Source: Saccopteryx bilineata (taxonomy: Eukaryota; Chordata; Mammalia; Chiroptera; Emballonuridae). From it: 64,000 nucleotides of DNA. The notes below the pieces were generated by a model that worked only from the letters and a program-made list of their open reading frames with translations, was not told the DNA's origin and searched no databases. The stretch spans positions 180,560,106-180,624,105 of the forward strand of contig NC_089492.1 of the NCBI RefSeq assembly GCF_036850765.1, written 5' to 3'. This document shows, in pieces, positions 4,210 through 62,604 of the stretch. The number at the start of each line of letters is the position of its first letter. The first letter of the stretch is position 1. The position numbers and the translations under genes were made by a program.

Positions 4210-5867
4210 GAACCTGAAGATGGCAGCAGAGTAGGCAGACGCACCAACTCCCAGCTCACACCACCAAACTGGATTACAAACTAATTTATGAACAATTAGT
4301 GTGAAAAACCAAATCTGGACTACAAGAACAGCTCTCAAAAACCAAGCAGCAAAGAAGAAGCCACAACAAACCTGGTAGGGAGCACCTGAATCTCCCCTGC
4401 TTACAGGAACGGGGAGGGGTGTGAAGCTGAGAGCCCAGAAGGGATCTCACTCCAAGGAAAAGAGCAGTAAATACTGTTCACAGCCACTTGCCTGGCAACC
4501 AGGGAACAAGGTGTATTGAAAGGGCCAGCTTATCTTCCAAAAGAGAAAGGGGAGAGAGTGAGACAGTGAGGGGCAGAGGAATGCAGGGGACGACCTGAAA
4601 AGTTGACTAATTCAGTGATGGAGGCGGCCATAGCCGTGGGAGGGGTTGATTCTTCCACAAAACAAAAGTCAAAGTGCTTCTGGGCACAGATGTCTAGGCA
4701 TCTCTCCAGCTCCAATCAGCACAACAAGGCACAGCTAAAAACAAGAAGTGGGGAGGAGGGGCAGCAACTCAGATCTCCATGGAAATCTGAGATACACCTC
4801 CCTCTACTGCAGCTGAGAAAGCAGAAACCCACCCCCAAAGAGATTAACTGGCAGAAGAGGACTTCAGAGCCTCAGGTTACACCCACTGTATTCCTGGTTA
4901 CAGTTTCAAATAAACCCCCTGCTGAGATCAGCAAACAAGACAATCACCTGTTAAGAAAACAAACAAATCAGCCCTGGCCGGTTGGCTCAGCGGTAGAGCG
5001 TCGGCCTGGTGTGCAGAAGTCCCGGGTTCGATTCCTGGCCAGGGCACACAGGAAAAGCGCCCATCTGCTTCTCCACCCCTCCCCCTCTCCTTCCGCTCTG
5101 TCTCTCTCTTCCCCTCCCGCAGTCGAGGCTCCATTGGAGCAAAGATGGCCCGGGTGCTGGGGATGGCTCTTTGGCCTCTGCCCCAGGCGCTAGAGTGGCT
5201 CTGGTTGCAACAGAGCGACACCCCGGAGGGGCAGAGCATCGCCCCCTGGTGGGCAAAGCATCGCCCCCTGGTGGGCGTGCCAGGTGGATCCCGGTCGGGT
5301 GCATGCGGGAGTCTGTCTGACTGTCTCTCCCCATTTCCAGCTTCAGAAAAATACAAAAAAAAAAAAAAGAAAAAAGAAAACAAACAAATCAGACATCAAG
5401 GGGTCCAAATCTGAAAGCAGATTACAAACAATAGCTGATGCCAACCGAAGAAGACCTAGAAATAAGACAATTGACAGTACATATGCTGTCTACAAGAGAC
5501 ACACCTTAAAACAAAAGATGCGCATAGGTTGAAGGTAAAAGGATGAATAAAAACATTTCATGCAAATGGAAATGAAAAAAAAGCTGGGGTAGCAATACTT
5601 ATATCAGACAAAATGGACTTTAAAACAAAGAATATAGTAAAGGATAAAGAAAGCAATCAAACAGGAAGATATAGCTATTATAAATATCTATGCACCTAAT
5701 ATAGGAGCACCTAAATATATAAAGCAGACTTTGATGGATATAAAGGGCAAGATCAACAGCAATACTATAATATAGTAAGCGATTTCAATACCACACTAAC
5801 ATCGCTAGATAGATCCTCAAGAAAGAAAATTAACAAAGAAACAGCAGACTTAAAGGACACACTAAAT
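4210..5867 (+). mobile_element. L1-A-type element: 5' UTR joined to endonuclease fragment, no 3' end
   Basis: It starts at 'gaagatggcagcagagtagg' (4216), the same 5' terminus as L1-A1 and L1-A2. The leader runs to about 5480, split by a SINE at 4971-5373. It then jumps straight into the ORF2 endonuclease region ('tacaagagacacacctta'), so the end of the leader, all of ORF1 and the first part of ORF2 are missing. Homology stops near 5866 inside the endonuclease domain. RT, 3' UTR and poly(A) are absent, unlike the usual 5'-truncated L1. Confidence 0.82.
4971..5373 (+). mobile_element. VES/Rhin-1-type bat SINE, complete, with target duplication
   Basis: Full-length tRNA-derived SINE. The head has a pol III A box (tggctcagcggtagagc) and B box (gggttcgattcc). 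An unrelated body and an A-rich tail follow. Flanking direct repeats of 18 bp, 'aagaaaacaaacaaatca', lie at 4953-4970 and 5374-5391. The 3' body carries two tandem copies of a 22-bp unit around 5232-5276. Confidence 0.97.
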
Positions 5868-15278: not shown

Positions 15279-15315
15279 CAGTCTAAACATTTCCCCATAA
15301 ATTAAGATTCTACCA

Positions 15316-15709
15316 GCCCTGGCCGGTTGGCTCAGCGGTAGAGCGTCGGCCTAGCGTGCGGAGGACCCGGGTTCAATTCCCGGCCAGGGCACACAGGAGA
15401 AGCGCCCATTTGCTTCTCCATGCCTCCGCCACGCTTTCCTCTCTGTCTCTCTCTTCCCCTCCCGCAGCCAAGGCTCCATTGGAGCAAAGATGGCCCGGGT
15501 GCTGGGGATGGCTCTGTGGCCTCTGCCCCAGGCACTAGAGTGGCTCTGGTCGCAACATGGCGACGCCCAGGATGGGCAGAGCATCGCCCCCTGGTGGGCA
15601 GAGCGTCGCCCCATGGTGAGCATGCCGGGTGGATCCTGGTCGGGCGCATGCGGGAGTCTGTCTGACTGTCTCTCCCTGTTTCCAGCTTCAGAAAAATGAA
15701 AAAAAAAAA
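15316..15709 (+). mobile_element. VES/Rhin-1-type bat SINE, complete
   Basis: tRNA-like head with A and B boxes, full body, and an A-rich tail after 'cttcagaaaaatg'. Target duplication is 'aagattctacc' at 15304-15314 against 'aagatcctacc' at 15710-15720. The 22-bp unit in the 3' body is present twice. The body differs from the 4971 copy (for example 'cgcaacatggcgacgccc'), suggesting another subfamily. Confidence 0.96.
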
Positions 15710-29259: not shown

Positions 29260-32200
29260 TTATGTTCCACCAATGTATGGAATCATGTAGTTCTTGTTTT
29301 TTTCTGATTTACTTATTTCACTCCTTGTAATATTATCAAGATCCCACCATTTTGCTGTAAATGATCTGATGTCATCATTTCTTATGGCTGAGTAGTATTC
29401 CATAGTGTATATGTGCCACATCTTCTTTATCCAGTCTTCTATTGAAGGGCTTTTTGGTTGTTTCCATGTCTTGGCCACTGTGAACAGTGCTGCAATGAAC
29501 ATGGGGCTACATGTGTCTTCACGTATCAATGTTTCTGAGGTTTTGGGGTATATACCCAGTAGAGGGATTGCTGGGTCATAAGGTAGTTCTATTTGCAGTT
29601 TTTTGAGGAACCACCATACTTTCCTCCATAATGGTTGTACTACTTTACAGTCCCACCAACAGTGAATGAGGGTTCCTTTTTCTCCACAGCCTCTCCAACA
29701 TTTGCTATTACCCGTCTTGTTGATAATAGCTAATCTAACAGGGGTGAGGTGGTATCTCATTGTAGTTTTGATTTGCATTTCTCTAATAACTAATGAAGCT
29801 GAGTATCATTTCATATATCTGTTGGCCATTTGTATCTCTTCCTGGGAGAAGTGTCTGTTCATGTCCTCTTCCCATTTTTTAATTGGATTGTTTGTTTGTT
29901 TGTTGTTGAGTTTTATGAGTTCTTTGTAAATTTTGGATATTAGGCCCTTATCTGAGCTGTTAAAATATCATTTCCCATTTAGTTGGCTGTCTGTTTATTT
30001 TTATATCAGTTTCTCTTGCTGAGCAAAAAATTTTATTCTGATGTAGTCCCATTCATTTATCTTTGCCTTCACTTCTCTTGCCTTTGGAGTCAAGTTCATA
30101 AAATGTTCTTTAAAACCCAGGTCCATGATTTTAGTACCTATGTCTTCTTCTATGTACTTTATTGTTTCAGGTCTTATATTTAGGTCTTTGATCCATTTTG
30201 AATTAATTTTAGTACACGGGGACAGGCTGTAGTCGAGTTTCATTCTTTTGCATGTGGCTTTCCAGTTTTCCCAACACCATTTGTTGAAGAGGCTTTCTTT
30301 TCTCCATTGTATATTGTTGGCCCCTTTATCAAAGATTATTTGACCATATATATGTGGTTTTATTTCTGGGCTTTCTATTCTGTTCCATTGGTCTGAGTGT
30401 CTATTTTTCTGCCAATACCATGCTGTTTTGATTATCGTGGCCCTATAATATAGTTTAAAGTCAGGTATTGTAATGCCCCCAGCTTCATTTTTTTCCTTAG
30501 GATTCTTTTGGCTATTCGGGGTTTTTTATAGTTCCATATAAAACTGATGATTTTTTGATCCATTTCTTTAAAAAATCTCATAGGGATTTTGATGGGAATT
30601 GCATTAAATTTGTATATTGCTTTGGGTAATATGGCCATTTTGATTATATTTATTCTTCCTATCCAAGAACAAGGAATATTTTTCCATCTCATTGTATCTT
30701 TTTCGATTTCCCTTAACAATGCTTTGTAATTTTCATTATATAGGTCCTTTACGTTCTTTGTTATGTTTATTCCTAGGTATTTTATTTTTTTTGTTGCAAT
30801 CGTGAAGGGGATTATTTTTTTGAGTTTGTTTTCTAATATTTCATTGTTGGCATATAGAAAGGCTATGGACTTTTGTATGTTAATTTTTTATCCTGCGACC
30901 TTACTGTATTGGTTTATTGTTTCTAATAATTTTTTTGTGAAGTCCTTCGGGTTTTCGATGTATAAAATCATATCATCAGCAAAAAGTGATAGCTTTACTT
31001 CTTTTTTTCCGATATGGATGCCTTTTATTTCTTTATCTTGTCTGATTGCTCTGGCCAGAACTTCTAGCACCACGTTAAATAAGAGTGGAGAGAGTGGACA
31101 ACCCTGTCTTGTTCCTGATTTAAGGTAGAAAGTCCTCAGTTTTATGCCGTTTAATAGGATGTTGGCTGATGGTTTATCATATATGGCCTTTATCATGTTG
31201 AGATATTTTTCTTCTATACCCATTTTGTTGAGAGTCTTAAACATAAAATTGTGTTGTATTTTATCAAAAGGCTTTTCTGCATCTATTGATAAGATCATGT
31301 GGTTTTTGTTCTTTGTTTTGTTGATATGGTGTATTACGTTAACCGTTTTGCGTATGTTGAACCATCCTTGAGATTCTGGGATGAATCCCACTTGATCATG
31401 ATGTATTATTTTTTTAATATGTTGTTGTATTCGGTTTGCCAGTATTTTGTTTAGTATTTTAGCATCTGTATTCATTAGAGATATTGGTCTGTAGTTTTCT
31501 TTCTTTGTGCCATCCTTGCCAGGTTTTGGTATGAGGGTTATGTTGGCCTCATAAAATGTGTTTGGAAGTATTGCTTCTTCTTCAATTTTTTGTAAGACTT
31601 TGAGTAGAATAGGAACCAAGTCTTCTTTGAATGTTTGATAGAATTCACTAGTATAACCGTCTGGGCCTGGACTTTTATTTTGGGGGAGGTTTTTAATAGT
31701 TTTTTCTATTTCCTCCCTGCTGATTGGTCTCTTTAGGCTTTCTGCTTCTTCATGACTCAGTCTAGGAAGGTTGTATTGTTCTAGGAATTTATCCATTTCT
31801 TCTAGATTGTTGTATTTGGTGGCATATAATTTTTCATAGGGTTCTACAATAATTCTTTGTATATCTATGATGTCTGTGGTGATCTCTCCTCTTTCATTTT
31901 GGATTTTATTTATTTGAGTCCTGTGTCTTTTTTCCTTGGTGAGTCTTGCCAAGGGTTTGTCAATTTTGTTAATCTTTTCAAAGAACCAGCTCCTTGTTTT
32001 ATTGATTTTTTTCTATAGTTTTTCTGTTCTCTATTTCATTTATTTCTGCTCTGATTTTTATTATCTCCTTTCTTTGGCTGGTTTTGGGTTGTCTTTGTTC
32101 TTCTTTTTCTAGTTCCTTAAGGTGTGAAGTTAAGTGGTTTACTTCGGCTCTCTCTTGTTTGTTCATATAGGCCTGAAGTGATATGAACTTTCCTCTTATT

Positions 32201-36859: not shown

Positions 36860-39800
36860 GAGGAATCTCCATACTGTTTTCCACAGTGGCTGCACCAGTC
36901 TGCATTCCCACCAGCAGTGCAGGAGGGTTCCCTTTTCTCCACATCCTCACCAGCACTTATTCTGTGTTGTTTTGTTGATAAGCGCCATTCTGACTGGTGT
37001 GAGGTGATATCTCATTGTGGTTTTAATTTGCATTTCTCTAATGATTAGTGATGTTGAGCATTTTTTCATATGCCTATTGGCCATCTGTATGTCCTCTTTG
37101 GAGAAGTGTCTATTCATTTCTTTTGCCCATTTTTGGATTGGGTTGTTTGTCTTCCTGGTGTTGAGTTTTCAAGTTCTTTATAAATTTTGGTTATTAACCC
37201 CTTATCAAACTTATTGTCAAATATGTTCTCCCATTGTGTAGTTTGTCTTTTTATTCTGTTCTTGTTGTCTTTAGTTGTGCAAAAGCTTTTTAGTTTGATA
37301 TAGTCCCATTTGTTTATCCTGTCTTTTATTTCACTTCTCCGTGGAGATAAATCAGCAAATATATTGCTCCGAGAGATGTCCGAGAGCTTACTGCCTGTTT
37401 TCTTCTAAGATGCTTATGGTTTCATGGCCTACATTTAAGTCTTTTATCCATTTTGAGTTTTTTTTGTGAGTGGTGTAAGCTGGTGATCTAGTTTCATTTT
37501 TTTGCAGGTAGCTGTCCAATTTTCCCAACACCATTTGTTAAAGAGGCTGTCTTTACTCCATTGTATTTCCTTACCTCCTTTGTCAAATATCAGTTGTCCA
37601 TAGAACTGTGGGTTTATTTCTGGGTTCTCTGTTCTGTTCCATTGATCTATATGCCTGTTCTTATGCCAGTACCAGGCTGTTTTGAGTACAACGGCCTTGT
37701 AGTATAACTTGATATCAGGAAGTGTGATACCTCCCACTTTATTCTTCTTTTTTAAGATTGCTGAGGCTATTCGTGTCCTCTTTTGGTTCCATATAAATTT
37801 TTGGAATATGTGTTCTATATCTTTGAAGTATGTCATTGGTATTTTAATTGGTATTGCATTGAATTTATAGATTGCTTTGGGTAATATAGACATTTTAATG
37901 ATGTTTATTCTTCCTAACCATGAGCACGGTATATGCTTCCACTTGTTTGTATCTTCCTTGATTTCTTTTATCAATGCTTTGTAATTTTCCGAGTACAAGT
38001 CTTTAGTCTCCTTGGTTAAGTTTACTCCTAGGTACTTTATTTTTTTGGTTGTAATTATGAAGGGGGTTGTTTCCTTAATTTCTCTTTCTGACTGTTCATT
38101 GTTGGTGTATAAAAATGCTTCTGATTTCTGAGTATTGATTTTATATCCTGCCACATTGCTGAATTTATTTATCAGGTCCAGTAGTTTTTTGACTGAGACT
38201 TTAGGGTTTTCTATATACAATATCATATCATCTGCAAATAATGATAGTTTTACTTCTTCTTTTCCAACTTGAATGCCTTTTATTTCTTCTTCTTGTCTGA
38301 TTGCTGTGGCTAGGACTTCCAGGACTATGTTAAATAAGAGTGGTGAAAGGGGGCACCCCTGCCTTGTTCCTGATCTTAAGGGGATTGCTTTTAATTTTTT
38401 ACCATTGAGTATGATGTTGGCTGTCGGTTCCTCATAGATGGCTTTTATCATGTTGACGTATGTTCCCTGTATTCCCACTTTGCTGAGAGTTTTGATCATG
38501 AATGGGTGCTGGATTTTATCAAATGCTTTTTCTGCATCTATTGAAATTATCATATGGTTTTTCTCCTTTTTGTTTATGTGATGAATCACATTGATTGATT
38601 TACGAATATTGTACCAGCCTTGCCTCCCCAGAATAAATCCCACTTGATCATGGTGTATGATTTTTTCCATATATTGTTGGATCCCGTTGGCTAATATTTT
38701 GTTGAGGATTTTAGCATCTATATTCATCAGAGATATTGGCCTATAATTTTCTTTCTTTGTGTTGTCTTTGCCTGGTTTTGGAATCAGAATTATGCTTGCC
38801 TCATAAAAGGAGCTTGGAAGTCTTCCTTCCTCTTGAATTTTTTGAAATAGTTTAAGGATAGGAGTTAGTTCTTCTTTGAATATTTGGTAGAATTCCTTTG
38901 TGAAGCCATCGGGCCCCGGACTTTTCTTTGTTGGGAGTTTTTTGATAACTGTTTCTATCTCATTTGGTGTAATCGGTCTGTTTAGGTTTTCTGATTCTTC
39001 CAGATTGATTTTTGGAAGATTGTATGTTTCAAGGAATTTGTCCATTTCATCTAGGTTGTCTAGTTTTTTGGCCTACAGTTCTTCATAGTACTTTCTTACA
39101 ATATTTTGTATTTCTGTTGTGTCAGTTGTTATTTCTCCTCTCTCATTTCTAATTTTATTTATTTGAGTCCTCTCTCTCTTTTTCTTGGTGAGTCTACTTA
39201 AAGGTTCATCAATCTTGTTTACCTTTTCAAAGAACCAGCTCCTAGTTTCATTGATCCTCTGTATTGTTTCTTTAGCCTCTATGTCATTTATTTCTGCTCT
39301 GATCTTTATTATTTCCTTCCTTCTACTACATTAGGGCTTTACTTGCTGTTCTTTTTCTAATTCTTTTAGATGCAGGGTTAAGTTGTTTATTTGAGCTTTT
39401 TCTAGCTTCTCAAAGTGTGCCTGTAGTGCTATGAACTTCCCGCTCAGCACTGCTTTTGCTGTGTCCCATAAATTTTGAGTTGTTGTATGCTCATTGTCAT
39501 TCGTTTCTAGGAATTTTTTTATATCTTCTTTGATCTCATTCTTAATCAATTCATTATTTAACACCCTGCTATTTTGTTTCCATGTGTTTGATAATTTTTG
39601 AGCTTTTCTGCTGTGATTCATTTCTAGTTTCATGCCGTTGTGATCGGAGAAAGTGCTTGATATGATTTCAGTCTTCATAAATTTGTTGAGAGCACTTTTG
39701 TGCCCTAACATGTGGTCTATCCTAGAGAATGTACCATGAGCACTTGAAAAGAATGTATATTCTGCTGCTTTAGGGTGAAAGGTTCTGAAGATACCTATTA

Positions 39801-51174: not shown

Positions 51175-51184
51175 CTAGAAAGCC

Positions 51185-51209
51185 CGGCGGTCATACAAAA
51201 TGACCGCCG
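51185..51209 (-). other. Helitron 3' terminal hairpin
   Basis: Perfect 10-bp GC-rich stem (CGGCGGTCAT with ATGACCGCCG) and 5-nt loop, six nucleotides before CTAG. This is the rolling-circle termination signal of Helitrons. Confidence 0.92.
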
Positions 51210-51533
51210 TTCTAGATATTATAAATTGTAATTAAAATAATTTGTGCAAAGGTGTCTGATAATTCAAACTGAATACCCAGGGCAGGCGGCGAGGACACCC
51301 CTTTGCTTACTGCCCCATGGGGTTTCCCCCTTCTACTTGCTTAATTGCTTAAAGTAGAGTGCAACGAAGGAAACCACTGGCGGCACATTTCTTAAGAGCC
51401 ACCGCTAGCTCAATAAACAAAGGTGATTTAAATAATAAAATGTTAATTCACATGTCAAAGATCTCTTTGTACACAACATTTCTTGTGTAGATCTTTCCAT
51501 CATTTTTCAGCTCTCCTTGCAGAGAACTATCAA

Positions 51534-51971
51534 TTATTGTATTTTTAATTTTACATCCGTTCTTTCACGAACTCTTGAACAGGCTACATAAAGTTGACCA
51601 TGTCCAAATGCAGGCTCAGGTAAAAAAATGCCAACAGAGGAATGCTCAAAAATTAAAGCTTCTCCGTTTGAAACTGTTTTAATCCTTTTTGCATTTCGGT
51701 CAGCATTACTCTGTCGTTTTTTTGCATTTCTCTCCTGCCTTTGTTCAAGGGACTCATTTTGTCGAGACAGGCTTTTTTGTCTTACATCTGAGGCAAGCCT
51801 TGTTTCTCTATGCTCATCAGTCTCATTTTGCCGAGAAAGACGCATTTGCTCTGCGACTGAAGCAAGCCTTATCTTTCTCTGCTCAGTGGTTTCTTTTTGT
51901 CGAGAAAGCCATTTTTGTGCAGCTGTAGCTCCTTTTCTCTCCTCTTCAGTGCTGTATTTTCTAGGAGGCAT
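51534..51971 (-). CDS. Helitron mini-ORF: N-terminal repeat block fused to last helicase motif
   Basis: 145 residues from MPPRKYSTEEE. Three 23-residue repeats (LSRQKETTEQRKIRLAS, LSRQNETDEHRETRLAS, LSRQNESLEQRQER; residues about 24-85) are rich in R/Q/E and probably helical. Such repeats occur near the N-terminus of many Helitron Rep-helicase proteins. A lysine/arginine-rich linker follows. The end, GIFLPEPAFGHGQLYVACSR, matches the Pif1-type helicase motif VI at the C-terminus. The HUH nuclease and helicase motifs I-V are absent, so the product cannot nick or unwind DNA. It could only bind nucleic acid or be inert. The frame stays open through the fusion, so this is either a recent deletion derivative or a maintained product. 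Confidence 0.75.
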   Translation of the reverse strand: MPPRKYSTEEERKGATAAQKWLSRQKETTEQRKIRLASVAEQMRLSRQNETDEHRETRLASDVRQKSLSRQNESLEQRQERNAKKRQSNADRNAKRIKTVSNGEALIFEHSSVGIFLPEPAFGHGQLYVACSRVRERTDVKLKIQ

Positions 51972-52012
51972 TCTTAAAAGAAATTACATTAAGACATAGT
52001 TTTTATGTAAAA

Positions 52013-52155
52013 CAGATGATTGCCAATGCAAACAAATGTTCACCTTCCCCCTGACACGCTCAATTTGCATTCAGCCTTAAATTGTTTCAAAAGCAGATGA
52101 TTGCCAATGCAAACAAATGTTCACCTTCCCCCTGACCCGCTCAATTTGCGTTCAG
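52013..52155 (-). repeat. Direct repeat inside the Helitron 5' region
   Basis: Two near-identical copies of about 62 bp (52013-52074 and 52094-52155, period 81), each containing 'cagatgattgccaatgcaaa' and 'ccttccccctga'. They lie between the 5' terminus and the ORF start. Confidence 0.93.
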
Positions 52156-52249
52156 TCATGGCAACTTCACCCCATTGGCTAGTACAGTTACGCAAGCAAC
52201 CAATAAGCTATCGGCAATAAACAGACACTTAAGCCGCATATAATAAAGA

Positions 52250-55550: not shown

Positions 55551-55943
55551 TTTTTCTTTTTTTTTTTCTTTTTTTTTTTTTGTATTTTTCTGAAGTTGGA
55601 AACGTGGAGGCAGTCAGACAGACTCCCGCATGTGCTCGCCCGGGATCCACCCAGCATGCCCACCAGGGGGGGATGCTCTGCCCATCTGGGGCGTTGCTCT
55701 GTTGCAACCAGAGCCATTCTAGCACCTGAGGCAGAGGCCACAGAGCCATCCTCAGTGCCCAGGCCATCTTTGCTCCAATGGAGCCTTGGCTGCGGGAGGG
55801 GAAGAGAGAGACAGAGAGGAAGGAGATAGAGAAGGGTGGAGAAGCAGATGGGTGCTTCTTCTGTGTGCCCTGGCCGGGAATTGAACCTGGGACTCCTGCA
55901 CGCCAGGCCGACAACTCTACCACTGAGCAAACCGGCCAGGGCC
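55551..55943 (-). mobile_element. VES/Rhin-1-type bat SINE, complete
   Basis: Reverse orientation with head gccctggccggtttgctcag. Exact 15-bp target duplication 'tgttgcttgattctt' at 55536-55550 and 55944-55958. Only one copy of the 22-bp 3' unit is present. Confidence 0.96.
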
Positions 55944-57998: not shown

Positions 57999-58197
57999 GG
58001 CTCTGTTCAGGTAGTTCAATAGATAAATTGTCAATCCTGCACACCAGATGACTCGGGTTCAACCCCTAGTCAGGGCAAACAAGAGAAGCAATCAATGTGT
58101 ACATCACTAAGTAAAACAACGAGTTGATGCTTCTGTCTTATCTCTTTCTTCTTCTTCTTTTACTCTTGCTCTCAAGCCAATGAAAAATAAAAATAAA
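57999..58197 (+). mobile_element. Old VES-type SINE
   Basis: tRNA-like head ('ggctctgttcaggtagttca', 'actcgggttcaacccctagt'), then 'gcaatcaatgtgtacatc', a CTT-rich tract and an AAAT tail. The next SINE inserted at its tail. Confidence 0.8.
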
Positions 58198-58573
58198 GCC
58201 CTGGCCGGTTGGCTCAGTGGTAGAGTGTTGGCCTGGCGTGCAGAAGTCCCAGGTTTGATTCCCGGCCAGGGCACACAGGAGAAGCGCCCATCTGCTTCTC
58301 CACCGCTCCCCCTCTTCTTCCTCTCTGTCTCTCTCTTCCCCTCCTGCAGCCGAGGCTCCATTGGAGCAAAAGATGGCCCGGCGCTGGGGATGGCTCCTTG
58401 GCCTCTGCCCCAGGGGCTAGAGTGGCTCTGGTCGCGACAGAGCGATGCCCCGGATGGGCAGAGCATCGCCCGCTGGTGGGCGTGCCGGGTGGATCCCGGT
58501 CGGGTGCATGCGGGAGTGTGTCTGACTGCCTCCCCGTTTCCAGCTTCAGAAAAATACAAAAAAAAAAAAAACA
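58198..58573 (+). mobile_element. VES/Rhin-1-type bat SINE
   Basis: Complete head, body and A tail, inserted at the A-rich tail of the preceding SINE, so its target duplication cannot be separated from tail sequence. One copy of the 22-bp 3' unit. Confidence 0.93.
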
Positions 58574-62233: not shown

Positions 62234-62604
62234 GCCCTGGCTGCTCAGTAGTAGAGTGTTGGCCCGGTGTGTGGAAGTCCTGGGTTCGATTCTCGGTCAG
62301 GAAACACAGGAGAAGTGCCCATTGGCTTCTTGACCCTCCTCCTCTCCTTTCTCTCGCTTTCATCCTCTCTCACAGCCAGGGCTCCATTGGAACAAAGTTG
62401 GCCCGGGTGCTGAGGATGGCTCATAGCATCCACCTCAGCACTAGAATGGTTCCAGTTGCAACAGAGCAACACCCCAGATGGGCAGAGTATCGCCCCCTGG
62501 TTGGCATGCCAGGTGGATCTCGGTCGGGTGCATGAGGGAGTCTGTCTCTCTGCCTTCCTGTTTCTCACTTCAGAAAAATACAAAAAAGGAAAGAGAGAGA
62601 GAGA
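62234..62604 (+). mobile_element. VES/Rhin-1-type bat SINE, older copy
   Basis: Complete but with many CpG losses and a shortened head ('gccctggctgctcagtagta'). Target duplication 'gagaggttcatagag' (62219-62233) against 'gagaggttcatggaa' (62605-62619). Ends in a (GA)n tract. One copy of the 22-bp unit. Confidence 0.93.

Follow-up and report, generated by a model that had tools for sequence, protein, structure and literature searches.

A young Helitron family with internally deleted copies in the emballonurid bat Saccopteryx bilineata and its very probable arrival separate from HeliBat

The window element and its host

The window, the stretch of 64,000 nucleotides that was analysed here, carries a Helitron belonging to a family termed family A, the features of which are collected in Table 1. 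Read on the minus strand, the element has the layout host A / TCTTTATTATATGCGGC ... CGGCGGTCAT-TTTGT-ATGACCGCCG-GGCTTT-CTAG / host T, where the slashes mark the boundaries with host DNA. The original prediction had placed a Helitron with a 5'-TC, a 3' hairpin and CTAG at this position, and it was right in the coordinates, the ends and the hairpin of what is an element of the minus strand; its description as a complete Helitron holds for both ends, not for the middle, which is deleted and of which a 145-aa ORF remnant is left.

Table 1. Features of the Helitron in the window (positions counted from the first letter of the window)
Feature	Position	Strand	Remarks
Family A Helitron of 1,075 bp, non-autonomous	51175..52249	minus	termini and adjoining host bases legible in the sequence
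5' terminus TC, start of TCTTTATTATATGCGGCTTAAG	52248..52249	minus	host A (complement of 52250) precedes
3' terminus CTAG	51175..51178	minus	followed by host T (complement of 51174)
3' subterminal hairpin (perfect stem of 10 bp, loop of 5 nt)	51185..51209	minus	10 nt from 3' end
Hairpin arms	51185-51194 / 51200-51209		
145-codon remnant ORF	51537..51971	minus	RepHel start fused to last helicase residues
Internal deletion junction	51628..51636	minus	L043 element positions 545 and 4450; 9 nt assignable to either side
81-bp unit, two tandem copies, 5' part of element	51981..52142	minus	

Folded as single-stranded DNA, the terminal 51 nt containing the hairpin reach -15.5 kcal/mol (z = -7.35), a value equalled by none of 200 shuffled sequences, and the repeat listing of the element contains no inverted repeat linking its two ends. 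Residues 112-144 of the remnant ORF match residues 1436-1468 of Helraiser, the extreme C-terminus of the helicase (E 9e-8 for the whole sequence), the nuclease and the helicase core being absent; a protein search with this ORF gave 39 candidates and none at E <= 0.001. The 81-bp unit is single in the alignment with the longer element L043, described below, and doubled in some other copies as well. The window element is thus a Helitron with complete ends, internally deleted and non-autonomous. Its type is unremarkable for a Helitron; what surprises is the host.

This host is Saccopteryx bilineata, a member of the Emballonuridae and not a vespertilionid, a case for which the original prediction had allowed. 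Under the vertebrate mitochondrial code, the product of a nuclear copy of cytochrome b (L048) shares 99% identity with that of S. bilineata, followed by the emballonurid Centronycteris at 92-93%, and the vespertilionids among the 120 matches listed reach ~86-90%; a rhinolophid or vespertilionid host is ruled out by these values. Long nuclear copies of mitochondrial DNA in which cytochrome b is largely open in the mitochondrial code were seen at C13:95216321, C11:23327720, C2:304602306 and C1:140045816, and one of them served to identify the host. S. bilineata has 2n = 26. Saccopteryx leptura, for which PMC13047367 gives 2n = 28, was rejected as the host since the chromosome lengths published there differ.

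The window also holds five copies of a tRNA-headed SINE of ~390 bp (4966-5360, 15314-15705, 55576-55942, 58197-58563 and 62243-62587), two copies of which score as tRNA in Rfam, the other four being 76-90% alike to the first. On Rhin-1 SINEs, to which the SINE bodies of the window had been likened, the literature search found nothing; the likeness would have suggested a horseshoe bat, and the host is an emballonurid.

Copies, insertion sites and parent element of family A

The genome searched comprises 2.61 Gb in 256 contigs, and the lengths of the large ones (59-408 Mb for C1-C8, C10, C12 and C13) would fit some 12 autosomes and an X. A 29-nt pattern of the family's 3' end, allowing up to three mismatches, has 1,529 sites in this genome against none for the reversed control, so the 3' end of the window element is not a product of chance. 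A search with the window element itself returned 77 matches from the 40 scored of 1,724 candidates, and the best-scoring of them provided a sample of 28 loci (L001-L030 without L009 and L010). The second sample (L051-L078) consists of 28 of the 1,529 3'-end sites, 8 of them returned as loci by the search and 20 selected by us from the 100 listed; every one fits the pattern without mismatch and lies on contig C1 or C2. A recognisable 5' end is present within 2.2 kb in 23 of them, and L057, L060, L064, L072 and L074 were left out of the counts of 5' ends and junctions; in the best-scoring sample, the sequence of L015 was taken too short and is without the 5' end. TC stands at 24 of 28 5' ends in the best-scoring sample and at 23 of 23 in the second, and CTAG at 27 of 29 3' ends in the best-scoring sample, the 3' ends of the second having been pre-selected by the pattern. 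The hairpin contains zero to three mismatches in 28 of the 29 ends, the exception (L017) being out of register through a loop shorter by 1 nt; the stem is perfect in two of the 29, and its most frequent variant carries a single A-C mismatch.

Insertion between A and T, another element of the original prediction, is borne out by the flanks of the family. T follows the 3' end in all 56 copies, and of 49 bases read just before the 5' end, 88% are A and 12% are T. For nine of 49 flank pairs (L016, L018, L020, L024, L025, L028, L058, L061 and L078) an empty copy of the interrupted repeat extends across the join, and in each of the nine it is gap-free within 10 nt, which implies that insertion added the element only, without target duplication. 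The best empty copy has A/T at the join in six cases, T/T in L020 (where another empty copy has A/T), G/T in L024 and A/G in L028; the three joins other than A/T count against the A/T rule, yet isolated base differences are to be expected between paralogous repeat copies that are 73-95% alike. When a paralogous empty copy was sought for the window site, only the element's own two flanks matched. One of the 28 loci examined, L012, contains two Helitrons exactly head to tail (CTAG/TCTTTATT) with 0 bp between them. In the oriented L012 locus the first element ends at 1267 and the next starts at 1268, and the upstream part looks rearranged. The A/T joins, the lack of duplication and the tandem arrangement are the footprints expected of Helitron transposition, and tandem arrays and A/T insertion have been published for HeliBat (PMC4778049, PMC5876387).

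The target of family A is asymmetric. ATA occurs within positions +4 to +12 of 51 of the 56 3' flanks, and TATA in 33 of the 56; as controls, ATA was counted 10 times in the stretch +28 to +36 and in 10 of 49 flanks on the 5' side. L1-like repeats at 36911-37207 and 29659-29959 of the window pair with L061 and L020, respectively, with insertions at corresponding places, the contexts being GAGCA/TTT..TTCATATG and GCATCT/TTTCATAT. These two family A copies suggest a favoured target inside the L1-like repeat.

The parent of the window element is represented by L043, a 4,907-bp element on contig C1 that has identical termini. Segment by segment, the window element is 93-96% alike to it, both ends included, and lacks ~3.9 kb of it. 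L043 scores 200.7 bits with PF14214, and its 780-aa open frame was aligned end to end with residues 364-1151 of Helraiser (E 1e-263), a more N-terminal piece being aligned with residues 110-152 (E 3e-4). Its coding region is broken over three frames, and its Walker A stretch reads GPEGSRKI versus GPGGSGQT in the Helraiser protein of known structure, which carries the mutation K1068Q. Because of the three-frame split and the altered Walker A stretch, L043 has probably lost its activity.

Each of the 49 copies with both ends derives from the L043 element by internal deletion, and together they fall into 27 junction clusters, a number that hinges on the choice to merge junctions within 25 nt. The deletion type of the window element (545^4450) is shared with L003 and occurs within 25 nt in L002, L007 and L008, which places it among the few types that have been amplified. 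Of the 27 sampled types, 21 occur in a single copy, suggesting that deletion recurred during the copying of family A. Microhomology at the junctions averages 3.96 versus 1.86 in one simulated null (P 0.012; median 2 versus 1, P 0.054), a slight excess that is suggestive only. Judging from the Helraiser experiments, full-length copies would make a RepHel protein that would nick a strand at the 5' TC, peel off one strand and stop at the 3' hairpin and CTAG, upon which the copy would be inserted at an AT site; any element keeping both ends could be moved by this protein, and the repeated deletions may arise while the peeled-off strand is copied. The sole full-length copy of family A found, L043, is now broken.

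Divergence of family A and a second Helitron family

Over the 5' 625 bp, the copies differ from their majority sequence by a mean of 1.86% K2P, or 0.86% without CpG/TG/CA columns (21 copies); L004-L008, L012 and L015 are omitted from this figure, which leans young because diverged copies such as L004, at 4.84% among the most diverged at the 3' end, are missing from it. The corresponding means are 2.01% and, without CpG-type columns, 0.99% for the last 200 bp (28 copies), and 2.71% for the last 300 bp (26 of the 27 best-scoring copies, L020 being excluded as misaligned with a K2P of 54%). The divergence of the 5' 300 bp in the second sample was set aside, given its mixed structures. The original prediction had proposed counting copies and determining their divergence, and this yielded 1,529 3'-end sites and sampled copies 1.9-2.7% from the majority that share their ends.

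At the bat rate of 2.366e-9 per site per year (PMC4436864, where it is printed per my and where the calibration is not emballonurid), these values would correspond to a mean age of about 8-11 Myr for family A, or about 4 Myr for the 5' 625-bp and last-200-bp figures without CpG-type sites; since similarity governed the choice of the sampled copies and the 5' figure lacks some diverged ones, such ages lean young. We infer the entry date of family A from copy divergence only. None of the 21 copies compared is more diverged in the 5' part than the window copy (2.95%; 1.77% without CpG-type columns), which lies above the mean in its 3' part (3.09%), where eight of 25 others are higher; its estimated age is about 12 Myr, or 7 Myr without CpG-type sites. 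The perfect stem, from which a limited age had been predicted, fails as a clock: just two of the 29 ends have one, and the window copy that carries it is diverged above the mean.

A second family, family B, was recovered by a search with the PF14214 profile, which gave 291 candidates, all 150 of those scored lying above the cut-off. Ten of the 12 loci returned by this search (L033-L042) and, additionally, L046 belong to it. Its members carry remnants of the Rep domain, have the ends TCTATATAAATAAAAATG ... GGGTACAGCTAG/T, with a CTAG terminus and T on the 3' side, and show pairwise DNA identities of 87-92% over long alignments. Halving the pairwise divergence gives ~4-6% per copy, which with this rate would date family B to roughly 20 Myr.

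Origin of the two families and comparison with known Helitrons

The RepHel protein of family A is 52.5% identical to Helraiser over 792 aa. In a tree of 32 proteins, family A, Helraiser and proteins of a mite, a scorpion, a pseudoscorpion and poison frogs form one group of nine rows with support 96/94, inside which the branching order lacks resolution, pairing of family A with Helraiser having an AU p of 0.09. Searching protein databases gave 3,592 matches among 7,978 scored candidates; the closest of the 120 best listed are ~50-52% identical over the query and at most 57% over part of it, and no mammal occurs among the listed matches that bear an organism name. The viral contigs searched contain no relative of family A, and neither they nor the protein matches listed include a near-identical one. 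The same hairpin pattern was seen in two viral contigs (L009:5665-5691 and L010:10452-10478); the pattern being a palindrome, these matches are probably due to chance. With the 200-aa Rep core of Helraiser as the query, four loci of the bat genome reached 60-69% and the others at most 55%, mostly ~45% like family B, so that no copy exceeded 69% among the 150 scored of 239 candidates and HeliBat itself was not found among them. Given the identity of 52.5%, the unsupported pairing and the similar distance of the database proteins, family A is, on protein comparison, a Helitron lineage other than HeliBat, so that a spread of HeliBat into another bat family is not what is seen here.

A single Helitron in the yangochiropteran ancestor, inherited vertically to become HeliBat among vespertilionids and family A among emballonurids, would agree with the joint grouping of Helraiser and family A in the tree, with the survival of their sisterhood in the AU test and with an AT preference that is stronger on the 3' side in both. 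This history is nevertheless improbable, as the identity of the two proteins is so low, mite, scorpion, pseudoscorpion and frog proteins share their group, the copies of family A have diverged by just ~2-3%, and rolling-circle elements make up 0.01% of the genomes of Miniopterus and Pteronotus according to PMC4971623, which describes two ancient families there at ~30-34% distance. Copy divergence likewise rules out the ancient mammal-wide Helitrons as the source: all four bats studied in PMC4971623 have Helitron1Nb_Mam and Helitron3Na_Mam, but the distance there is ~30-34% versus ~2-3% in family A, and the 780-aa open RepHel frame still present in L043 also speaks against such a leftover, to which next to no probability is given.

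Two further explanations concern the DNA analysed. Contamination of the assembly is exceedingly unlikely, since the listed copies of family A lie on contigs C1-C13, nine of them sit in repeats whose element-free copy lies in the same genome, and no evidence was found in its support. It is scarcely conceivable that the genome is that of a vespertilionid with an ordinary HeliBat: Pipistrellus abramus, on record with 2n = 26, would fit the ~13 chromosomes suggested for the studied genome, but cytochrome b points to S. bilineata (99%, the next emballonurid at 93%), and none of the copies scored against the Helraiser Rep core exceeded 69%.

The best explanation for family A, in line with the separate and possibly horizontal colonisation envisaged in the original prediction, is a horizontal arrival separate from that of HeliBat, as the family is young, absent from the mammals surveyed in the literature and grouped with non-mammalian proteins. 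Counting against it are that no donor turned up among the database proteins listed or in the viral contigs, and that the window site has no empty paralog. The window element is very probably a non-autonomous, internally deleted member of a young family in S. bilineata that would have entered emballonurids by horizontal transfer, in an event separate from HeliBat and not older than roughly 10-15 Myr. It is also likely, if less so, that emballonurids have been invaded at least twice independently of HeliBat, once by family B, perhaps some 20 Myr back, and once by family A in about the last 10-15 Myr, both times horizontally from non-mammals.

The main finding is that an emballonurid bat has a young Helitron family distinct from HeliBat, and another of greater age. 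Helitron invasion has so far been regarded as something peculiar to vesper bats: a 2026 paper describes vespertilionids as the only mammals with such invasions, PMC5664122 speaks of vespertilionids, and the papers listed by the literature searches, which covered few subscription journals, showed no report of Helitrons in emballonurids. Two emballonurid invasions, if true, would end the status of vespertilionids as the sole mammals with Helitron invasions. With young Helitrons in a second, distant bat lineage, the exposure of bats through insect diet, ectoparasites and viruses becomes testable, as does the question whether transfer tracks ecology or was one lucky event; comparison of the published S. 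leptura genome with that of S. bilineata could date the arrival directly.

Among known and newly described relatives, family B resembles family A in its canonical Helitron ends and the T following the 3' end, and differs from it in its greater age and in a protein identity of 37-42% over the aligned Rep stretch. The RepHel proteins of Cordylochernes, poison frogs, Centruroides and Dermatophagoides belong to the same group as family A and Helraiser (96/94) and, at 48-57% identity to family A, are too distant for a direct donor. HeliBat, as characterized through Helraiser (Helibat1 of Myotis lucifugus; PMC4778049), shares with family A the 5'-TC, the CTAG-3', a 3' subterminal hairpin, the AT target, the RepHel protein and the existence of non-autonomous derivatives, and Helraiser in human cells prefers AT-rich DNA most on the 3' side, as family A does. 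The same source gives Helraiser a 19-bp palindrome, a length of 5.3 kb and, for HeliBat in M. lucifugus, more than 100,000 copies, whereas family A has a hairpin of two 10-nt arms with a 5-nt loop, a length of 4.9 kb and ~1,500 3'-end sites, and resides in Emballonuridae instead of Vespertilionidae.
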